Positions 6,575 through 16,871 of a stretch of 34,019 nt of DNA are shown here, piece by piece. The DNA comes from Thermoproteota archaeon. Lineage in GTDB: Archaea; Thermoproteota; Bathyarchaeia; Bathyarchaeales; Bathycorpusculaceae. Each line of letters begins with the position of its first letter. Positions within the stretch are counted from its first letter, which is position 1. The stretch covers positions 1-34,019 of the forward strand of contig JAAZBP010000010.1 of NCBI GenBank assembly GCA_012513715.1. The letters are read 5' to 3'. A model generated the notes under the pieces. That model worked only from the letters and a program-made list of their open reading frames with translations, was not told the DNA's origin and searched no databases. The translations under genes and the position numbers were made by a program.

Positions 6575-6591
6575 CCGAAATGCTTATATTT
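6575..6591 (+). promoter_or_regulatory. Putative archaeal BRE/TATA promoter of the aromatic operon leader
   Basis: CCGAAA-TGC-TTATATTTT fits a BRE+TATA arrangement. TSS expected about 25 nt downstream (~6610-6615), leaving a ~160-nt leader before lysC. Confidence 0.5.
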
Positions 6592-6625
6592 TTTAAGCCC
6601 TGACTGATTGGGCAGGCTCGAAGCA

Positions 6626-6715
6626 ATGTCCAATGTACAAACAAAAAGTGATGTCAATGCAATACCGTTCAATAGCTTCGGCTACGTCTTTTACTCTTTC
6701 TATTATTTTACTTAA
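6626..6715 (+). CDS. Putative Phe/Tyr-rich leader peptide, MSNVQTKSDVNAIPFNSFGYVFYSFYYFT
   Basis: 29-codon ATG..TAA ORF read directly from sequence, absent from the ORF track (too short). 9 aromatic residues in the last 14. Sits between promoter-like sequence and the aromatic operon. Confidence 0.6.
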   Translation: MSNVQTKSDVNAIPFNSFGYVFYSFYYFT

Positions 6716-6753
6716 GCCCAGAGCTAAACAATTTTTTGAGAAAAGTTCTGGGC
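6716..6753 (+). promoter_or_regulatory. Stem-loop abutting the leader ORF stop codon; candidate attenuator hairpin
   Basis: GCCCAGAGCT (6716-6725) pairs with AGTTCTGGGC (6744-6753): 10 bp with one G.U, 18-nt loop containing T6 (6732-6737). SD-like GGTG at 6762-6765 precedes the lysC ATG at 6773. Confidence 0.6.
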
Positions 6754-6772
6754 AAAGCAAGGGTGTAAAACA

Positions 6773-8017
6773 ATGGTAGGACATATATCTGACAAAAAAA
6801 TTGTGGTTAAATTCGGTGGCTCTAGTCTAGCTGATCATGAAAAGCTCCTCAAGGCAGTTATGGCAGTGGTGGATGAATATAAAAAAGGCACAAAAATCGC
6901 TGTTGTCGTCTCAGCTATGGGTAAAACAACCGATGTTTTAATGTCGACAGCGAGAAGTACATCTAATGGTAAACTAGAGAAAAAAGACCTCGATGATATA
7001 CTATCAATGGGTGAGAGGACTAGTGTGCGAATATTCTCAGCCGCTCTCAAGAATAACGGTGTATCTTCTTGCTACTTTGATCCTCTTGATTGTAATTGGC
7101 CCATCATAACTGATGATTCATTCCAAAACGCAAATCCTCTGCTTAAAGAATGTGAGAAGAAAATTAAAGACTATATTTTACCCCTCGTCGATAAAGGAAC
7201 TGTACCCGTGATAGCTGGTTTTGTGGGTAAAACAAATGCCGGTAAAATTACTACCCTCGGTCGAGGTGGTAGCGACACTACAGCTTTCCTGATTGCACAA
7301 GCTTTGAATGCTAATCAAGTGGTGCTTGTTACAGACGCAGACGGAATTATGTCAGGTGACCCTAAAATCGTTAATTCATCAGTTCGTCTACCAGAGATTA
7401 ATGTTAACACACTTATTGGACTTGCAGATTCAGGTGCAAAATTTATACACAGTAAAGCTCTAAAATATAAACCTAAAAATATTGATGTTAAAGTCATGAA
7501 CCATGCTTTAGGCGATTTAAGCAAAGAAGGTACAATAATTAAAGGTGTATTAGCCACAGAACTCGATGCCGAAATAGCTTTTCCCACACCAGTTGCTGAA
7601 ATCACTGTTATTGGTGATGGATTGTCTGTGAATCCTCACGTCATTACCGATATGGTGGAAGCAGTCAAACAATATTCTTTGCTCTTAGGTATGTCTATGA
7701 ATACAAACTCCATAATCCTTTATGTTTCTCAGGAGAGAAACCTTGAACCTTTAGTAGATGAACTTCATAAAATCACAATAAACAATAAAGAAACAATTGC
7801 GATGGCAGTCAAGAAAGATTTGGTCTTTATCAAAACTAGCGGTGTTGGACTAGAAGAAACCCATGGTATAATAGGCAGAATCAGCGAAGATTTATGTGTA
7901 AACGGCATAAACATTTCAGGTATTCTTACGATTACTTCAAGTATTCTGCTTTTTGTAGATTGGAACTATAAAGAGACAGCGTTAAAGTTAATTAAAAACG
8001 CGCTCAAGACAAATTGA
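6773..8017 (+). CDS. lysC: Aspartate kinase
   Basis: VVKFGGSSLAD, VVSAMGKTTDVL, TLGRGGSDTTAFLIAQAL, VTDADGIMSGDPKIV; ACT-type C-terminal region. Confidence 0.95.
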   Translation: MVGHISDKKIVVKFGGSSLADHEKLLKAVMAVVDEYKKGTKIAVVVSAMGKTTDVLMSTARSTSNGKLEKKDLDDILSMGERTSVRIFSAALKNNGVSSCYFDPLDCNWPIITDDSFQNANPLLKECEKKIKDYILPLVDKGTVPVIAGFVGKTNAGKITTLGRGGSDTTAFLIAQALNANQVVLVTDADGIMSGDPKIVNSSVRLPEINVNTLIGLADSGAKFIHSKALKYKPKNIDVKVMNHALGDLSKEGTIIKGVLATELDAEIAFPTPVAEITVIGDGLSVNPHVITDMVEAVKQYSLLLGMSMNTNSIILYVSQERNLEPLVDELHKITINNKETIAMAVKKDLVFIKTSGVGLEETHGIIGRISEDLCVNGINISGILTITSSILLFVDWNYKETALKLIKNALKTN

Positions 8018-8030
8018 GGATGAAGTAAAC

Positions 8031-8822
8031 ATGAACGTAGGTAAAACGCGCAGACTTAAAAGAATCATGCAAAAAGATCATCGTACAGTGATTGTCCCTA
8101 TGGATCATGGCGTAACCATAGGTCCGATTCATGGAATAACTAATATGCAAATAATTACTAATCAACTTACAGCGGGCAATGTTGACGCTATCCTTGTTCA
8201 TAAAGGAATAGCTAAAACTATTGATGTGGATCGCGCAGGTTTAATTGTAATGCTCTCCGGTATGTCTAATCTTAGTCCCAACGTAGACGAGAAAGTTCAA
8301 GTGTGTAGTGTCCAAGAGGCAGTTCGTATAGGTGCAGACGCAGTATCAGTACACGTTAACGTGGGTGCGCAATACGAAGATAAAATGTTGAAGCATCTCG
8401 GGCGAGTTTCTGAAGAATGTGACATTTTTGGCATTCCACTTTTGGCTATGATGTATCCCCGGGGTCCAAAAATTCAAAGCGAACATGATGCAACTGTAGT
8501 TGCTCATGCAGCTCGAGTTGGCGCAGAATTAGGCGCAGATATTATTAAAACCAACTATACAGGTGACATTGACACCTTTAAAGGTGTAATTGAAAGCTGC
8601 CCTGTGCCTATCGTAATCGCAGGCGGACCGAAATGTAAATCACCTCAGGAAGTACTACAAACAACGTCTGATGCTCTGGTAGCAGGAGCAGCTGGTCTCT
8701 CAATTGGACGAAATGTATTCCAATTCGAAAACCCAACTAGAATAACAAAAGCACTATCAGCAATTGTTCATGAAAACGCTTCGGTAGAAAAAGCGATTAA
8801 AATTATTGGTGAAAAAAGTTGA
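8031..8822 (+). CDS. 2-amino-3,7-dideoxy-D-threo-hept-6-ulosonate (ADH) synthase, archaeal AroA'-type class I aldolase
   Basis: MNVGKTRRLKRIM..., VIVPMDHGVTIGPIHGI, AMMYPRGPKI, VGAELGADIIKTNYTGD, VPIVIAGGPK; followed by 3-dehydroquinate synthase II. Confidence 0.93.
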   Translation: MNVGKTRRLKRIMQKDHRTVIVPMDHGVTIGPIHGITNMQIITNQLTAGNVDAILVHKGIAKTIDVDRAGLIVMLSGMSNLSPNVDEKVQVCSVQEAVRIGADAVSVHVNVGAQYEDKMLKHLGRVSEECDIFGIPLLAMMYPRGPKIQSEHDATVVAHAARVGAELGADIIKTNYTGDIDTFKGVIESCPVPIVIAGGPKCKSPQEVLQTTSDALVAGAAGLSIGRNVFQFENPTRITKALSAIVHENASVEKAIKIIGEKS

Positions 8823-9841
8823 AGGAACTTTGGGTAGAACTAGATAAAAACTATAGAAAAGACGATTTGCTTCCTCTTGTAAAGCAATATGGTGATGCAA
8901 TTCTTCAAGGGGGCATTCTGCGTTTAATAAAAAGCGATGAGGCACTCAATGTTTTATCTGGAAAAGATGATGGAATTCTTCAACAGGATTTGAAAAATAA
9001 AGTAGTAAAAATTTCTATCATTGACAAAGAAACCGAGAATTTAACTGTTAAAATTGCCGACAAAGGCGCTAGATATTTAGTAATAAGCTGTGCAAATTGG
9101 CGAATCATTCCTTTAGAAAATCTCATCGCCAGAACAAAGGGTAAAAGTAAACTTATTGCTGAAGTAGAAACTTCTGAGGAAGCAAAAATAGCAATAGAAA
9201 CACTTGAACTGGGAACTGATGGTGTATTATTAAAAACTTCTTATTCAGACGAAATTCTGAAAACAGTATCAATAGTAAAACCTGAGGCATTGAAACTTGA
9301 ACTGAAAACTGCAAAAATCACCTGTATAAAACCAATTAGCACTGGCGCTAGAGTATGTGTTGATACCTGTGATATGATGCAGACAGGTGAAGGAATGCTA
9401 GTGGGTAGCCAAAGTGCTGGGCTTTTTTTAATTGAAGCAGAGGTCAACGAAAACCCCTACGTAGCTTCTAGACCTTTCAGAGTAAACGCAGGTTCTTTAT
9501 CAATGTACACTTTAGCAACACTACAGACTACTCGTTATCTCTCTGAACTAAAGGCAGGCGACGAAGTTATCATTGTAAATCGTGAAGGTAAAACACGCAA
9601 AGCTAACGTCGGAAGAATAAAAATTGAAATTCGTCCTCTGGTCCTTCTCGAAGCCCAAGTGGAAGGAAAAACAATAAAGACAATTCTTCAAAATGCAGAA
9701 ACAATCCGTGTAGTTACTTCAACATCGTCAAAGCCAGTAACAGAACTACAACCTAACGATGAAGTCATAGTTTATCTAGCTGCAAAGGGAGGACGACACT
9801 TCGGAATAAATGTATCCGAAGAAACGGTGATTGAAAAGTGA
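8819..9841 (+). CDS. 3-dehydroquinate synthase II (AroB'-type)
   Basis: TTG start overlapping upstream [50 protein letters not shown] is diagnostic of the archaeal family. Confidence 0.94.
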
Positions 9842-10521
9842 CTCCGAGAATCTGCGTTTCGATTCTCCCAAGGAACCTGATTGAAGCATTAGATTTAATT
9901 GAGAAAGCAGAGAATTCAAAAGCAGACTTTATAGAAGTCCGTTTTGACCTTCTAAAAGAAGCAATTAACCTGTCTGAACTTGTAAAAAGCACAAAGATTC
10001 CTTTAATAGCTACAAACAAATTACAAAGCGAAAACGGGTTTTTCTCAGGTTCAGAAATTGATCGACAGCGTATTCTGTTCGCTGCAGCAAAAAATGATTT
10101 CTCATATGTTGATATAGATTTTATGAGTCCATTACGGGATGAAACAGTGAAAACATTGAAAGATTTCCACGTTAAGTCAATTGTTTCTTACCACAACTTC
10201 CATCAAGTTTTGCCTGTTTCAAAAATGGAGAAAATCTTAGACGAACAGATTAATATTGGCGCTAATATTTGCAAAATTATTCTTACCGCAAATGAAATCG
10301 AAGATAATTTCTCTGTTCTTAGTTTTGTCTCTTTTGCTTCAATCAAAGCTAAGATAGTCTGTTTCTGCATGGGTAAACACGGAAAAATCTCAAGGGTTCT
10401 CTCACCTGCTCTTGGCGGCTTTTTCACTTTTGCTTCTCTTGACTCTGGTAGTGAAACTGCAAACGGGCAAATGAGTATTAGAGAAATGCAAACAGTATAC
10501 AATATGTTGGGGATACAATAA
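9838..10521 (+). CDS. aroD: Type I 3-dehydroquinate dehydratase
   Basis: GTGA overlap with upstream gene. KADFIEVRFDLL, SIVSYHNFH, ICKIILTANEIED, FCMGKHGKISRVLSPALGGFFTFASL. Confidence 0.92.
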   Translation: MTPRICVSILPRNLIEALDLIEKAENSKADFIEVRFDLLKEAINLSELVKSTKIPLIATNKLQSENGFFSGSEIDRQRILFAAAKNDFSYVDIDFMSPLRDETVKTLKDFHVKSIVSYHNFHQVLPVSKMEKILDEQINIGANICKIILTANEIEDNFSVLSFVSFASIKAKIVCFCMGKHGKISRVLSPALGGFFTFASLDSGSETANGQMSIREMQTVYNMLGIQ

Positions 10522-11378
10522 TGATTATTACAGGGAAAACTAGGGCTTGTGGAGTTATCGGTGACCCGATAAATCATTCTTTGAGCCCAATAATACAAAA
10601 TGCTGCTTTTGAGGCTGTTGATCTCAACTTCGTTTTTTTAGCCTACAAAGTAAAAACTTCTGGTTTAGAAGATGCAGTAAATGGTGCCCGTGCCCTCAAC
10701 ATACGTGGCTTAAACGTAACTATGCCTCACAAGACCAGAATTATTGATTTTTTAGATAGAATTGATTTATCTGCCCAAATCATCAAATCAGTCAACACGG
10801 TTTTGAATAAAGAAAATTTGCTTTTCGGTTTCAACACTGATGGTGTTGGTGCACTAAGAGCTTTGAAGGAAAATGGTGTTGAACCTAAAGGAAGAAAAGT
10901 TCTTTTACTTGGTGCTGGCGGAGCTGCAAGAGCAGTAGCTTACACCCTTGCTAAGGAAGCCGATGAGTTAGTAGTGCTAAATCGAACAGTCAAATCATCC
11001 CATAATTTAGCCAAGTTGTTAGAAAAAACAGTTGGCAAGAAAGTGGTTGCAGGTTCACTTTCGATAAGCGATATTCAAAGAAACCTTCAAGACTCTGACA
11101 TTTTAATTAACGCTACATCAGTAGGTATGAAACCTAAACCTCAAGAAAGTCCAGTCCCAATTAAACTATTACGACGTGATTTATCAGTCATGGATATAGT
11201 TTATAATCCAATAGAAACACGTTTGATAAAGGATGCCAAATCAATGGGTGCAGTTGTGATAGGTGGTATTGAAATGCTAATCTATCAGGGTGCTGCATCT
11301 TTTGAAATCTGGACTGGTAAGTCAGCACCTATTCAAGTAATGAAAAAAGCAGCTCTAAGTCACTTAAGGAAAGTGTAA
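10521..11378 (+). CDS. aroE: Shikimate dehydrogenase
   Basis: GVIGDPINHSLSPIIQNAAF, GLNVTMPHKT, FNTDGVGALRAL, LLLGAGGAARAVAY. Confidence 0.95.
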   Translation: MIITGKTRACGVIGDPINHSLSPIIQNAAFEAVDLNFVFLAYKVKTSGLEDAVNGARALNIRGLNVTMPHKTRIIDFLDRIDLSAQIIKSVNTVLNKENLLFGFNTDGVGALRALKENGVEPKGRKVLLLGAGGAARAVAYTLAKEADELVVLNRTVKSSHNLAKLLEKTVGKKVVAGSLSISDIQRNLQDSDILINATSVGMKPKPQESPVPIKLLRRDLSVMDIVYNPIETRLIKDAKSMGAVVIGGIEMLIYQGAASFEIWTGKSAPIQVMKKAALSHLRKV

Positions 11379-11381
11379 TAT

Positions 11382-12251
11382 TTGAGTGGAAAAGCTACAG
11401 CTTTAGCTTATGGTGCAGCAACTGTTGTTAATGCTATTGCATTGGGGAAGGGCGCTGCGTTTGGTGTTAATCTATGGACAAAAGCTGAAGTGGAGTTAAC
11501 TAACGAGCCGAATGTTATTACAGTAAATATAGTTTCTGACCCAAAAGAAAGCACGTTGCTAGTGGAAAAAACTGTTCAAATAGTACTAAACAAGTTTGGT
11601 TTAGCGAACTGTTTCGGTGCAAGAGTCAAAACTGAATCAAACATACCTGCTGCTAGAGGCTTAAAAAGTAGTAGCGTAGCTGCGAATGCGACTGCACTAT
11701 CAACAGTTGCAGCGTTAGGCAAGAAGTTAGACGACTTGGAAATCATCAGGATTGGTGTTGAAGCAGCTTTCAAAGCTAAGGTGACTGTTACCGGAGCTTT
11801 TGACGATGCATGTGCTTCATTCTTCGGTGGAGCAGTAATAACTGATAACCTAAATCAGAAAATTATCAGACAGCAAAAATTACCTGATGATTTACTGGTC
11901 ATGTTTCATGTGCCACACCAAAAAGAATACACAATAAACTCAGATGTTGAAAGACTCAAAACCGTTAAGCCATTAGTAGAATTAGCTTTCGAGTTAGCTT
12001 TGAAAGGTAATTTATGGGATGCATTAACACTTAACGGTTTAGTTTATTCTGCAGCATCGAATATGAACAGTAAAATAGCTATTGATGCATTAGCTGCTGG
12101 TGCCGTAGCGGCTGGATTATGTGGTAAAGGCCCTGCTGTGGCAGTTGTAACTTCAAATTATTATGTCGATAAAGTGCGCGCATCTCTCCAAAAATATGAA
12201 GGTGAAATTATTACTGCACACTTTAACAGTGAAAAAGCTAAGGTGTTATAG
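11382..12251 (+). CDS. Shikimate kinase, archaeal GHMP-kinase type
   Basis: TTG start. IPAARGLKSSSVAANATALSTVAAL (GHMP ATP-binding motif), GAFDDACASFFGGAVITDN; located between aroE and aroA. Confidence 0.93.
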   Translation: MSGKATALAYGAATVVNAIALGKGAAFGVNLWTKAEVELTNEPNVITVNIVSDPKESTLLVEKTVQIVLNKFGLANCFGARVKTESNIPAARGLKSSSVAANATALSTVAALGKKLDDLEIIRIGVEAAFKAKVTVTGAFDDACASFFGGAVITDNLNQKIIRQQKLPDDLLVMFHVPHQKEYTINSDVERLKTVKPLVELAFELALKGNLWDALTLNGLVYSAASNMNSKIAIDALAAGAVAAGLCGKGPAVAVVTSNYYVDKVRASLQKYEGEIITAHFNSEKAKVL

Positions 12252-12254
12252 CAC

Positions 12255-13541
12255 ATGGTAACTGTGGTAATTAGTAAAGCTGATGCATTAAATGGTGAAG
12301 TTTTTGCTCCATCGTCTAAGTCTTACACTCAACGTATGGTAATTGCAGCTGCTTTGTCGGGTGGTCAATCTAAAGTTTTTAATCCTCTTTTTTCTGAAGA
12401 TACCGAGGCAACGCTGCGGGCAGTAACTGCTTTAGGCGCAGAATATAAATCTCAAGATGGCTACTGGTTAATAACTGGAACTGGTCAGTTAAACTCTGCA
12501 GAAAAACCAATTGATTGTGGCGAATCAGGTGCAACATTGCGTTTTATGATACCAATTGCCGCTCTTGCTCTTGGGCCTTCAACATTGCTTTTTCACGGTT
12601 CATTTAAAAGGCGACCAGTTGAACCATTAATTGAAAGCCTAAAACAGTTAGGTACTGCTGCAACCACAAGTGAGCAAGCTGATTTAGGCTCTATTTACGT
12701 GGAAGGTGGTGGAATTGTTGGTGGCAAAACAAACATTGCTGGTGACATAAGTTCACAATTCATCTCTGGGCTTCTTTTTGCATGTCCAATGGCAAAAAAT
12801 GATACAGAAATCAACATTACCTCACCTTTAGAGTCGTCAGTCTATGTTAATATGACTGAATCTGTTCTCAATAAACACAAAATTTCGGTGAATATTGACC
12901 GCAATAAAATAATTATTCCCTCTAAACAGAAGTATTCTCCTGTAGATGATGTTGTTCCTGGAGACTTTTCTTCAGCCGCTTTCCTTTTAGCGGCAGCAGC
13001 AATCACCAAGTCCAACGTTACAATACACAATCTTAATACTGGATCTGTGCAGGGTGACAAAGCGATTTTAGAAATACTGAAGAAAGTAGGTGTCGATGTT
13101 ATAGTTGGCAATGATTGTGTTAAGATTTCGGGGTCTGTTAAAAATTTGTCTCCAATTGATATCAACGTAAAAAATATTCCTGATCTCGTTCCAGTAATCA
13201 CTGTTTTAGCCTGTTACGCTACAGGTACATCAAGAATTTATGGTGCTGGTAGGCTTCGATTAAAGGAGTCTGATAGGTTACAAGCTTTGTATGAAGAGTT
13301 TCGGAAGATGGGCGCTAATATTGAAGTAACTAACGATGGTTTGACTGTTATCGGTGAAAAACCTTTACACGGGGCAATTATTGACCCGCATAATGACCAT
13401 AGAATTGCAATGGCTTGTACGGTTGCGGCATTATTAGCTGAAGGCAAAACAACAATTCAAAATGCAGAATGCATTAGAAAGTCTTATCCACAGTTTTACA
13501 CTCATCTAAAACAATTAGGAGCTGAAATAGTTGGTAAGTAA
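12255..13541 (+). CDS. aroA: 3-phosphoshikimate 1-carboxyvinyltransferase (EPSP synthase)
   Basis: APSSKSYTQRM, DCGESGATLRFMIPIAAL, GDISSQFISGLLFACP, RLRLKESDRLQAL, DPHNDHRIAMA. Confidence 0.96.
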   Translation: MVTVVISKADALNGEVFAPSSKSYTQRMVIAAALSGGQSKVFNPLFSEDTEATLRAVTALGAEYKSQDGYWLITGTGQLNSAEKPIDCGESGATLRFMIPIAALALGPSTLLFHGSFKRRPVEPLIESLKQLGTAATTSEQADLGSIYVEGGGIVGGKTNIAGDISSQFISGLLFACPMAKNDTEINITSPLESSVYVNMTESVLNKHKISVNIDRNKIIIPSKQKYSPVDDVVPGDFSSAAFLLAAAAITKSNVTIHNLNTGSVQGDKAILEILKKVGVDVIVGNDCVKISGSVKNLSPIDINVKNIPDLVPVITVLACYATGTSRIYGAGRLRLKESDRLQALYEEFRKMGANIEVTNDGLTVIGEKPLHGAIIDPHNDHRIAMACTVAALLAEGKTTIQNAECIRKSYPQFYTHLKQLGAEIVGK

Positions 13542-14625
13542 CTCTTTAGGCAAATCTTTTACAGTCACAACTTTTGGTGAAAGTCACGGTCCAGTTATAG
13601 GCTTAGTTATAGATGGTTGCCCAGCAGGTCTACCCCTCGCTGAAATTGATTTTCAAGAAGAACTTGATAATAGAATCCCTGCTGAACCAAAAATTGTCTC
13701 TCCAAGAGCAGAAAAGGACGTAGCAAAGATTCTCAGCGGAGTCTTTAACGGCTATACTACTGGTGCGCCAATTGCTTTGATAGTTGAGAACAAAGACACT
13801 AATTCAAGTGATTATGAAGCAATAAAAAACACGCCCAGACCTAGTCACTCTGATTATCCAGCTCGATTGAGGTACGGTGGATTTAATGATTACCGTGGTG
13901 GTGGACGCTTTTCCGGAAGAGTGACTGTTGCACTTATAATGGCCGGTGTAGTAGCTAAAAAACTTTTAAATAAACATAAAATCGATGTTTTAGCATATAC
14001 CACTTCTATTGGTCAATTAAAATTAGATAAAAAATTAAGCATCCCAGAAATTCATAAAAATCGCTATGCCACTTCTACAAGATGCCCTGATTTTTCTAGT
14101 TCAGAACTTATGGAAAAAGCTATAATAGCAGCCAAGCAAGCAGGTGACAGTCTCGGCGGAATAATTGAATGTATCGTAATCAATATGCCCGCAGGTGTAG
14201 GAGACCCATTGTTTGATTCATTAGACGCAGACTTAGCTAAGGCTTTATTCTGTGTTCCAGCAGTGAAAGGTGTTGAATTTGGTACGGGCTTTAAATCAGC
14301 TGAACTTAAAGGGTCAGAGAATAATGATGCCTTCATTATTGGAAGTGGAAAGATTGTAACTGAAACAGAAAACGCGGGTGGCGTAATCGGTGGTTTATCT
14401 ACTGGATTGCCCATTGTGATCCGTGTTGCTATCAAACCAACTCCTTCGATTGCTAAGGAACAAAAAACTGTTGACCTTTCAAAGATGCAGAACACAGTAA
14501 TAACGATAAAAGGTAGACATGATCCTTGTGTTGTACCTAAAGCAGTGCCCGCAATTGAGGCGGTTGTTGCCATAACCTTAATTGACCACCTTATACGTTT
14601 AGGTCGAGTGCCTAAGGTTCTTTAG
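13531..14625 (+). CDS. aroC: Chorismate synthase
   Basis: TTG start, overlaps aroA. SLGKSFTVTTFGESHGPVIGLVIDGCPAGLPL, RGGGRFSGRVTV, GRHDPCVVPKAVPAIEAVVAI. Confidence 0.96.
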   Translation: MVSNSLGKSFTVTTFGESHGPVIGLVIDGCPAGLPLAEIDFQEELDNRIPAEPKIVSPRAEKDVAKILSGVFNGYTTGAPIALIVENKDTNSSDYEAIKNTPRPSHSDYPARLRYGGFNDYRGGGRFSGRVTVALIMAGVVAKKLLNKHKIDVLAYTTSIGQLKLDKKLSIPEIHKNRYATSTRCPDFSSSELMEKAIIAAKQAGDSLGGIIECIVINMPAGVGDPLFDSLDADLAKALFCVPAVKGVEFGTGFKSAELKGSENNDAFIIGSGKIVTETENAGGVIGGLSTGLPIVIRVAIKPTPSIAKEQKTVDLSKMQNTVITIKGRHDPCVVPKAVPAIEAVVAITLIDHLIRLGRVPKVL

Positions 14626-14636
14626 AGGCACTAAGA

Positions 14637-14897
14637 ATGGATGAAATTGAGCAATTAAGGAAAAAAATAGATGAAATTGACGATAAAATTATTAGTTCGT
14701 TATGTGAGAGAGCCAAGGTGTGTAGAGAAATTGGCGAAGCTAAGAAGAAATACGGCATCCCAATTCGTAACTTAGCTCGAGAAAATGAGGTTTATCAACG
14801 TATAAAAGAAAAAGCTGTACTTTTAGGTCTTGATTCAGATGAAATTCAAGCGGTTTACCGCGAAATAGTTAATATGTGCAGTAGTGTTCAGGTATGA
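14637..14897 (+). CDS. Chorismate mutase (AroQ class)
   Basis: MDEIEQLRKKIDEIDDKIISSLCERAKVCREIGEAKKKYGIPIRNLARENEVYQRI, typical AroQ helix pattern. Confidence 0.92.
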   Translation: MDEIEQLRKKIDEIDDKIISSLCERAKVCREIGEAKKKYGIPIRNLARENEVYQRIKEKAVLLGLDSDEIQAVYREIVNMCSSVQV

Positions 14898-14922
14898 AGA
14901 CTCTTAACGGAGAGTTAAACTG

Positions 14923-16002
14923 ATGCTTTATGAGATAAATGAGAAAGCTCTTAAACTTGAAAGCGAAGGAAAAAAAATAATCAGATTGAATATAGGTGAT
15001 CCTGATATGGCTACGCCTCCTGAGATAGTGGAGGCAGCTTACGCTTCTATGAAAGCAGGGAAAACAAAATATTCTTCTTCTTATGGGGAACTAAGTCTGC
15101 GAAAGAAAATTGCAGAGTTGCGTGGAGTTAAACCAGAAAATGTGGTTATCACTCCCGGTTCTAAATGGTCAATATTTGTTACATTATTTTTAATGTTAAA
15201 GAATGGTGGAAACGTCATTATTCCAACACCTTATTGGACTGCTTATGATTTAATAGCTAAAAATATAGGTGCAAAAACTAAACTTTTACGTACTGAGATG
15301 GAAGACGGCTGGAAAGTTGACTTAAATGAACTAGAGAACCTGATAGATAAAGATACTAAAATGATTATTCTCAATAATCCAAATAATCCAACAAGTAAAT
15401 CAATGGATGCAAAAACTTTAGATGGTATAGTCAAATTGGCTAATGAGAAGAAAATTACAATTCTTTCTGACGAAGTATATGGCGCAATTGCTTTCAATGA
15501 AACTAAAAGCATCTTAGATTATGGTAGTGATTCTGATCATATTCTCTCTAACGGTTTCTCTAAAACATTTACAATGACTGGTTGGCGTATCGGTTACATA
15601 ATAGCCAACAAAATGTTCGTAGACAAAGTTACTAAAATAAACCAGATAACATTCAATAACGTGCCTGTCTTTATACAAGACGCCGCACTAAAAGGTTTAG
15701 AATTACGTTCAAAAATAGCTTCTGATATAAAAGCTAAATACAAGCAACGCGCTGATTTGGCAAGTACAAAACTCGAAGCTGCTGGTTTCAAATTTACTAA
15801 GCCTGATGCCCCATTCTATGTTTTTCCAAAACTTGAAGGCTTAGTTTCTGATCAGTTTACCTTAGACCTTCTTGATAAAGGTGTGGCTGTGGCTCCGGGG
15901 AATTCTTTTGGTGAATACCCTGAGCACTTCCGTATTTCTTTAACAGCTCCAGATGACCAAATTGAAGTTGGCATCGATAAAATATGTGAGGCAGTTAAAT
16001 GA
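14923..16002 (+). CDS. PLP-dependent class I/II aminotransferase (aspartate/aromatic), N-terminus shorter than usual
   Basis: RLNIGDPDMATPPEIVEAA, NNPNNPTSKSMD, SDEVYGAIAF, LSNGFSKTFTMTGWRIGYIIA (PLP lysine motif). Confidence 0.9.
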   Translation: MLYEINEKALKLESEGKKIIRLNIGDPDMATPPEIVEAAYASMKAGKTKYSSSYGELSLRKKIAELRGVKPENVVITPGSKWSIFVTLFLMLKNGGNVIIPTPYWTAYDLIAKNIGAKTKLLRTEMEDGWKVDLNELENLIDKDTKMIILNNPNNPTSKSMDAKTLDGIVKLANEKKITILSDEVYGAIAFNETKSILDYGSDSDHILSNGFSKTFTMTGWRIGYIIANKMFVDKVTKINQITFNNVPVFIQDAALKGLELRSKIASDIKAKYKQRADLASTKLEAAGFKFTKPDAPFYVFPKLEGLVSDQFTLDLLDKGVAVAPGNSFGEYPEHFRISLTAPDDQIEVGIDKICEAVK

Positions 16003-16871
16003 GAACCGCCATTCTTGGCGCTGGAAAAATGGGTGTTTGGTTCGCGAAATACTGTAAAAGCAAAGGCGATACAGTGGTTATCGCAGATAGAAATCATACG
16101 AAACTTGAGATTTTAAAAACAGAGTTAGATATTGAAATAGCCAATTTTCCAGCTGCCGTAAAAGGCGCAGATCGTGTGCTAATTTGTGTATCGATTAGTT
16201 CTTTTGAAGAAATTGTTAAAAAGATAAGTTCAGCGATTCACAAAGACCAAGTGATAATGGACATTTGTTCAATTAAAGAATATCCAGTAAACGTGATGCA
16301 TCAGTATCTTAAAGATGCATTAGTGTTAGGTACGCATCCTGTTTTCGGTCCAGGTAGTACAGGGGTTAAGCATAAGGCATATGTACTTACACCTACAAAT
16401 CCCCGGGAAGCAGCTTATGCGGAAGAGTTTAAAAATTGGCTTGAGAAAGAGGGCGCACATGTTTTTATTATGTCTCCTCAGAAACATGATGAATTAATGT
16501 CTCTTATTTTGGGATTACCGCATTTTATTGGTTTAGTTGCTTGTGAAACATTACTATCTCGTCCATCTTTTCTTGAATCAAAAAAGCTGGCAGGTACAAC
16601 TTACCGTATGTTATTTACATTGGCAGAAGCAACTGCGCAAGAAACTCCTGACCTCTATGCGAATGTACAAACAAAACTTAGTGATTTGGGTAACCTTGAA
16701 GAGTCTTTTATTAAAAACGCCCAAGAATGGTTACATTTGATTAAGAAAAAAGATTCAGAAGCGATAATTTCTAGAATGAATCGTCTTAAAACTAAACTAA
16801 TTGAAGTTGATGATGATTATTCCAAATCATATGAAATTATGTATAAAATGTTGGAGTCTACTGAAGAATAG
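15999..16871 (+). CDS. tyrA: Prephenate dehydrogenase
   Basis: AILGAGKMGVWFAKYCKSKG Rossmann motif, LGTHPVFGPGSTG, LSLILGLPHFIGLVACETL-type segment; ATGA overlap with upstream gene. Confidence 0.88.
   Translation: MRTAILGAGKMGVWFAKYCKSKGDTVVIADRNHTKLEILKTELDIEIANFPAAVKGADRVLICVSISSFEEIVKKISSAIHKDQVIMDICSIKEYPVNVMHQYLKDALVLGTHPVFGPGSTGVKHKAYVLTPTNPREAAYAEEFKNWLEKEGAHVFIMSPQKHDELMSLILGLPHFIGLVACETLLSRPSFLESKKLAGTTYRMLFTLAEATAQETPDLYANVQTKLSDLGNLEESFIKNAQEWLHLIKKKDSEAIISRMNRLKTKLIEVDDDYSKSYEIMYKMLESTEE

Follow-up and report, generated by a model that had tools for sequence, protein, structure and literature searches.

A probable Phe/Tyr leader-peptide attenuator ahead of the common aromatic operon of Bathyarchaeia

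Comparison of upstream regions indicates that the common aromatic (Phe/Tyr) operon of Bathyarchaeia, and of some other members of the phylum, is very probably controlled by a ribosome-sensing leader-peptide attenuator, with ribosome stalling at Phe and Tyr codons as the best explanation of how the signal would be sensed. The window analyzed here is a 34,019-nucleotide stretch within a 2.1-Mb archaeal assembly of 247 contigs, and the named relatives of the locus are Bathyarchaeota, including Candidatus Bathycorpusculum acetigenerans of the same genus. The window contains a short leader ORF, located between a promoter-like element and lysC, whose last 14 residues include eight Phe or Tyr (Table 1). 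A preliminary description made from the letters of this DNA had counted nine; its promoter-like element, ORF coordinates and post-stop hairpin all match the sequence, and it overlooked both a further stem that reaches into the leader (stem I) and the conserved GGGTG ahead of lysC. In the upstream regions of the genus the TATA-like element mostly lies 39-45 nt 5' of the leader start, which places the predicted start of transcription upstream of the leader, near 6612-6616 in the window.

Table 1 Features of the proposed attenuator and its operon in the window (arm letters as used in the text).
Feature	Position	Strand	Basis or remark
BRE/TATA-like promoter element, CCGAAATGCTTATATTTTT	6575..6593	+	Sequence; recurs in genus upstream regions
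Stem I arm A, TCGAAGC, in the short 5' UTR just ahead of the leader start	6618..6624	+	RNAalifold
Leader peptide ORF, MSNVQTKSDVNAIPFNSFGYVFYSFYYFT*	6626..6715	+	29 aa; ATG 6626, TAA 6713-6715; intact in 30/30 genus upstream regions
Aromatic codon run S-F-G-Y-V-F-Y-S-F-Y-Y-F-T, proposed stall region	6674..6712	+	Codon comparison, 30 genomes
Stem I arm B, GCTTCGG, overlapping the run's first aromatic codon	6675..6681	+	RNAalifold, pair statistics
Stem II arm C, GCCCAGAGCT, from the base after the leader stop	6716..6725	+	Sequence, consensus fold
T6 tract in the stem II loop	6732..6737	+	Sequence
Stem II arm D, AGTTCTGGGC	6744..6753	+	Sequence, consensus fold
lysC Shine-Dalgarno-like GGGTG	6761..6765	+	Sequence; position kept just after stem II
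lysC, aspartate kinase, first operon gene	6773..8017	+	NCBIfam asp_kinases TIGR00657 above cut-off; ATG 6773, 57 nt 3' of the leader stop
Remaining operon genes	8031..16871	+	Gene order kept together with the leader across families

The amino acids of the leader match the product of the operon behind it, which leads to chorismate and on into the Tyr/Phe branch, while the Trp operon is separate. Behind lysC, the first half of the remaining genes comprises 2-amino-3,7-dideoxy-heptulosonate (ADH) synthase, 3-dehydroquinate synthase II, aroD, aroE and an archaeal shikimate kinase, and the second half comprises aroA, aroC, chorismate mutase, a class I/II aminotransferase and prephenate dehydrogenase. 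These identities agree with the earlier reading of an operon that makes chorismate and then runs chorismate mutase, an aminotransferase and prephenate dehydrogenase, and in the families whose operon was read the genes follow the leader in a conserved order. In the genus, trp promoters have a palindrome like TGTACATTTATGTACA immediately 5' of a BRE/TATA-like element (L152-L181, upstream of trpE), which we take to resemble a TrpY-type box. Judging by these promoters, a DNA-binding protein seems to control the Trp branch, and the leader the Phe/Tyr branch.

An orthologue of lysC is present in 31 of the 32 genomes of the genus, and its upstream region is readable in 30; in one genome contig ends divide lysC, and one near-complete genome, G030, is without this orthologue. 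All 30 upstream regions contain an intact-frame leader of 25-29 codons with 5-10 Phe or Tyr in its last 14 codons, a TATA-like element, and a hairpin at the leader stop codon, and nearly all have a Shine-Dalgarno (SD)-like sequence ahead of lysC; the other two frames of the leaders contain stops in 17/30 and 28/30. Across the 30 genomes the 14-16 N-terminal codons vary freely, while the end retains S/N-F-D/E/G-Y-x-F-Y-Y followed by more aromatics. The Ser codon of this core is AGC in 27 of the 30, which shows a constraint at the nucleotide level. Conservation in orthologous upstream regions, on which the preliminary description had made its case depend, is thus found, with the ORF kept and the aromatic run preceding the hairpin. 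The hairpin pattern occurs at lysC and nowhere else in the 32 genomes, which rules it out as a dispersed element.

To follow the leader beyond the genus, we gathered lysC upstream regions through the family, order, class and phylum (families are numbered f and genera g). Within the window's family, f1, it was found in 21/21 further orthologues examined, for example as MMNRNRLKLPTMRFLSMRYFFKYYY and MDIPIATRTLFELPFSGYWYFFNY in other genera. The motifs of the genus are recognizable in six of these genera (g3, g14, g17, g21, g24 and g31) and have given way to unrelated sequence in five (g10, g11, g13, g18 and g33), where the Phe/Tyr leader persists. It recurs in nine families of the class (f1, f3, f4, f5, f12, f13, f14, f19 and f23) and in at least two families outside the class but within the phylum (f34 and f43), with MNSHSTTSTSNSSMFYSFSYFFYN, MSDPASLRNFFAHEFFFYYNYF and MASEGSRKKVFGFFYGFYFYFYFGP as examples from other families; f32 and f47 are weak or doubtful cases, and no Phe/Tyr-rich leader is present in the lysC upstream regions of f10, f15, f18, f38 and f52 or of two distant f1 paralogues.

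Some of these upstream regions hold short frames of another kind. Loci of the f10/f15/f18 type (L105-L107, L109, L110, L112, L113, L115-L117, L121-L123 and L205), which are without the Phe/Tyr-rich leader, share in f10, f15 and perhaps f18 a different short frame, such as MGDHLFGDGVY... or MGDCVFGDGVYFSFN; its GGTGATC-like repeats match an extended SD sequence, and the frame partly overlaps an upstream extension of the lysC frame. In f32 (L202 and L206) a short ORF that ends only ~22 nt 5' of lysC holds CCTCCTGA...CAGGAGG-like repeats, the first half of which could pair with the lysC SD AGGAGG, and these repeats may possibly form an SD-sequestering switch.

Short ORFs rich in Phe and Tyr could arise by chance in T-rich DNA, a caveat raised in the preliminary description. 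For each 260-nt upstream region we took the best short ORF, counted Phe and Tyr among its last 14 codons, and compared the result with dinucleotide shuffles. At least seven Phe/Tyr were found in 68 of 104 real lysC upstream regions (65%) versus 16 of 10,400 shuffles (0.15%), an excess whose strength lies in its recurrence across families with unrelated nucleotide sequence, since sequences from the same genus are not independent. No comparable excess was seen for other residue pairs in the same upstream regions. Among 30 genomes, trpE upstream regions score 0-5 Phe/Tyr and no hisG upstream region has an ORF with seven or more; within ~1.5 kb, the genus shows no conserved His or Ile/Leu/Val leader at hisG or ilvC and no Trp leader peptide at the trp operon. 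Totals over 85 leaders are 317 Phe, 328 Tyr and 15 Trp. Lineages with ~46-54% GC around the leader (f3, f13, f14, f19, f34 and f43) still carry 6-10 Phe/Tyr, which answers the caveat; together, the shuffles, the control genes and the GC-richer lineages rule out a chance ORF in T-rich DNA.

The RNA around the leader is conserved as well. An unbiased RNAalifold consensus of 43 aligned leaders contains exactly two stems. Stem I joins TCGAAGC of the 5' UTR with GCTTCGA in the Ser-Phe-Asp/Glu codons and is paired in 99.7% of cells, with changes nearly all of the wobble type; stem II, represented in the window by a 10-bp hairpin, joins post-stop GCCCAGAAC with GTTCTGGGC and has both-side changes at three pairs. 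Taken together, the two stems pair in 98.7% of cells versus 25-46% when slid, with both-side changes in nine cells, and on 4 of 5 measures none of 500 shuffles reaches their pair statistics, which also exceed those of every slid control. The T6 tract of the stem II loop is present in one sub-clade of the genus and in several genera, and is absent in another sub-clade of the genus.

In other lineages the layout is kept with different sequence. Among 31 lineage representatives, about two-thirds have a stem II more stable than shuffles (p ≤ 0.05); its start is mostly at the stop codon or no more than a few nucleotides away. Equivalents of stem I, unrelated in sequence, are significant in g10, g11, g17, g18, f3, f19 and f23; in many lineages a single sequence gives no significant stem I. 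In f34 and g13 a post-stop arm can pair with the lysC SD. In f4 arm A is complementary to arm C in 11 of 12 sequences, and f5 shows strong B:C pairing in two sequences together with A:D pairing, both of which compete with stem II. In f5 and f12 a T-run comes after stem II, and the two together resemble an intrinsic terminator. At the f12 loci L108 and L111 this takes the form of a 14-15 bp post-stop hairpin and a T-run between the leader and lysC, in appearance a near-perfect bacterial-style intrinsic terminator in an archaeon. At the f5 locus L104, post-stop GCTGAAGAAAC can form either 11 bp with the Phe codons GTTTCTTCAGC or a hairpin with downstream GGTTTCTTC; by sequence this would be a textbook 2:3 versus 3:4 arrangement.

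We propose that scarcity of charged tRNA-Phe or tRNA-Tyr would cause the ribosome to stall within the aromatic run and that a ribosome halted on or before arm B would keep stem I open. The stalled ribosome would also change whether arm C stays in stem II or goes to another arm, and this would raise operon expression. In f4, a ribosome held on arm B would free arm A to take arm C from stem II, and in f5, pairing of arm B with C, or of A with D, would exclude stem II; since these competing pairings exclude stem II, they give the expected sign, in which starvation turns the operon on. For the window's genus, the candidate outputs are termination at the U-tract, FttA-dependent termination, or ribosome access to lysC.

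Folding with a masked ribosome bears on these outputs. In this folding, stem II survives when the ribosome is stalled on the early aromatic codons and melts when the ribosome occupies the last codon or the stop. With stem II intact under the stalled ribosome, a plain terminator would turn the operon off in starvation, which is the wrong sign and would make little sense for a biosynthetic operon, and folding revealed no competing pairing or classical 2:3 antiterminator evident in the window's genus. The stalling sensor put forward in the preliminary description gains support from the conserved ORF and the position of its aromatic run ahead of the hairpin. Its further suggestion that stalling alters the hairpin or the U-tract is supported only in part: a stop-codon ribosome melts the hairpin, a stalled one leaves it intact, and the U-tract lies in the loop or, in one sub-clade, is absent. 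We also considered whether stalling exposes the lysC start region, which was not supported (p = 0.08, no better than shuffled tracts, 32 leaders). FttA prefers U-rich RNA and, by hypothesis, is kept off by a coupled ribosome (PMC11616081); it is a plausible candidate for the archaeal output.

Within f1, the sequences of arms C and D hardly vary, which is more constancy than pairing demands. This would suit a structured 5' RNA that binds a protein or metabolite, in the manner of a riboswitch or TRAP, with the short ORF incidental. We consider such an element improbable, as an ORF present only incidentally would not have kept its frame in 30/30 genomes, 5-10 Phe/Tyr are kept in families with unrelated RNA sequence, and no Rfam family matches near any gathering score. 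The Rfam search likewise rules out a known riboswitch, and also a T-box, with no match to any family, T-box included, at E up to 5.

The core SF(D/E/G)YxFYY, conserved within the genus, could instead reflect nascent-peptide arrest, in which a specific peptide stalls the ribosome (SecM/TnaC/erm type) with Phe or Tyr acting as the small molecule. This too is unlikely, and clearly so once families are compared: the peptide sequence is wholly different between them, with unrelated order and spacing of residues (FYSFSYFFYN, FFGRFGYFGY, YYYYYYYCFF and FGFFYGFYFYFYFGP), while the Phe/Tyr composition is retained, which points to charged tRNA-Phe and tRNA-Tyr as what is sensed. Stem I moreover accounts for part of the core, given that the Ser codon there is almost always AGC.

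The paired elements of stem I might also be read as DNA, with TTCGAAGC near the start site and GCTTCGA in the leader serving as two sites for a DNA-binding aromatic regulator. The inverted repeat has a palindromic TTCGAA core, and the aromatic control known so far in archaea is exercised by DNA-binding proteins (PMC6737238). Almost every change within the stem, however, allows wobble pairing (A to G opposite T, C to T opposite G). Such changes keep the RNA pair but break the DNA repeat, and they speak for an RNA stem over a DNA operator; the spacing of the arms also varies by several nucleotides, and the sequence is absent in families that retain the layout. A DNA operator is accordingly a very unlikely account of these sites. 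Least credible is translational coupling by termination-reinitiation, in which leader translation would feed ribosomes to lysC: lysC has its own SD just downstream, and stem II is opened when a ribosome sits at the leader stop, but the stop-to-ATG distance of 40-74 nt (median 57) exceeds the ~30 nt above which coupling fades in E. coli and Haloferax (PMC12548453), and the Phe/Tyr enrichment would go unexplained.

Leader-peptide attenuation is a textbook bacterial mechanism that relies on transcription-translation coupling or on ribosome-driven refolding of RNA. A 2021 study stated that no example of transcription attenuation or antitermination was known in archaea (PMC8448881), and our literature search found no report of archaeal leader-peptide attenuation, although subscription papers lay outside it and an earlier report could exist. 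On the strength of that statement and that search, a leader-peptide attenuator in archaea appears to be new, its kind being known from bacteria. We further consider it likely that this is an old and widespread archaeal form of attenuation, in which a ribosome stalling on a Phe/Tyr leader would control the aromatic operon through stop-adjoining stems, possibly by FttA-dependent termination. The presence of the leader in ~11 archaeal families makes archaeal attenuation directly testable, and the leader offers a natural probe of ribosome-polymerase coupling, the mode of which is still open in archaea (PMC8116511, PMC11616081).

Like the attenuators of pheA, pheST, trp and his in E. coli and other bacteria, the archaeal element consists of a short, promoter-proximal leader ORF rich in end-product codons ahead of a biosynthetic operon, with RNA stems that overlap and follow the leader and with competing pairings in some lineages. 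It differs from them in its archaeal host and BRE/TATA promoter, and in that a single leader holds Phe and Tyr in equal number. The archaeal hairpin touches the stop codon, whereas those of E. coli trp and pheA lie further downstream. Members of the window's genus have a U-tract only within the loop, if at all, and showed no antiterminator. With translational attenuators of the ermC type it shares the proposal that a leader-stalled ribosome alters structure near the downstream ribosome-binding site, which the SD-pairing arms of f34 and g13 resemble; unlike them, it involves no inducer-dependent peptide arrest, and SD release by stalling is without statistical support here. TrpY of Methanothermobacter and Tar of Thermococcus likewise act at aromatic amino-acid operons of archaea (PMC6737238), but they do so as proteins that bind DNA at promoters. 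Hardly any Crenarchaeota genomes have TrpY or Tar, and a third regulator or mechanism has been raised as a possibility (PMC6737238); the leader fits this suggestion and, if the proposed attenuation is true, could be, for archaea with neither protein, a missing third mechanism by which aromatic operons are controlled.
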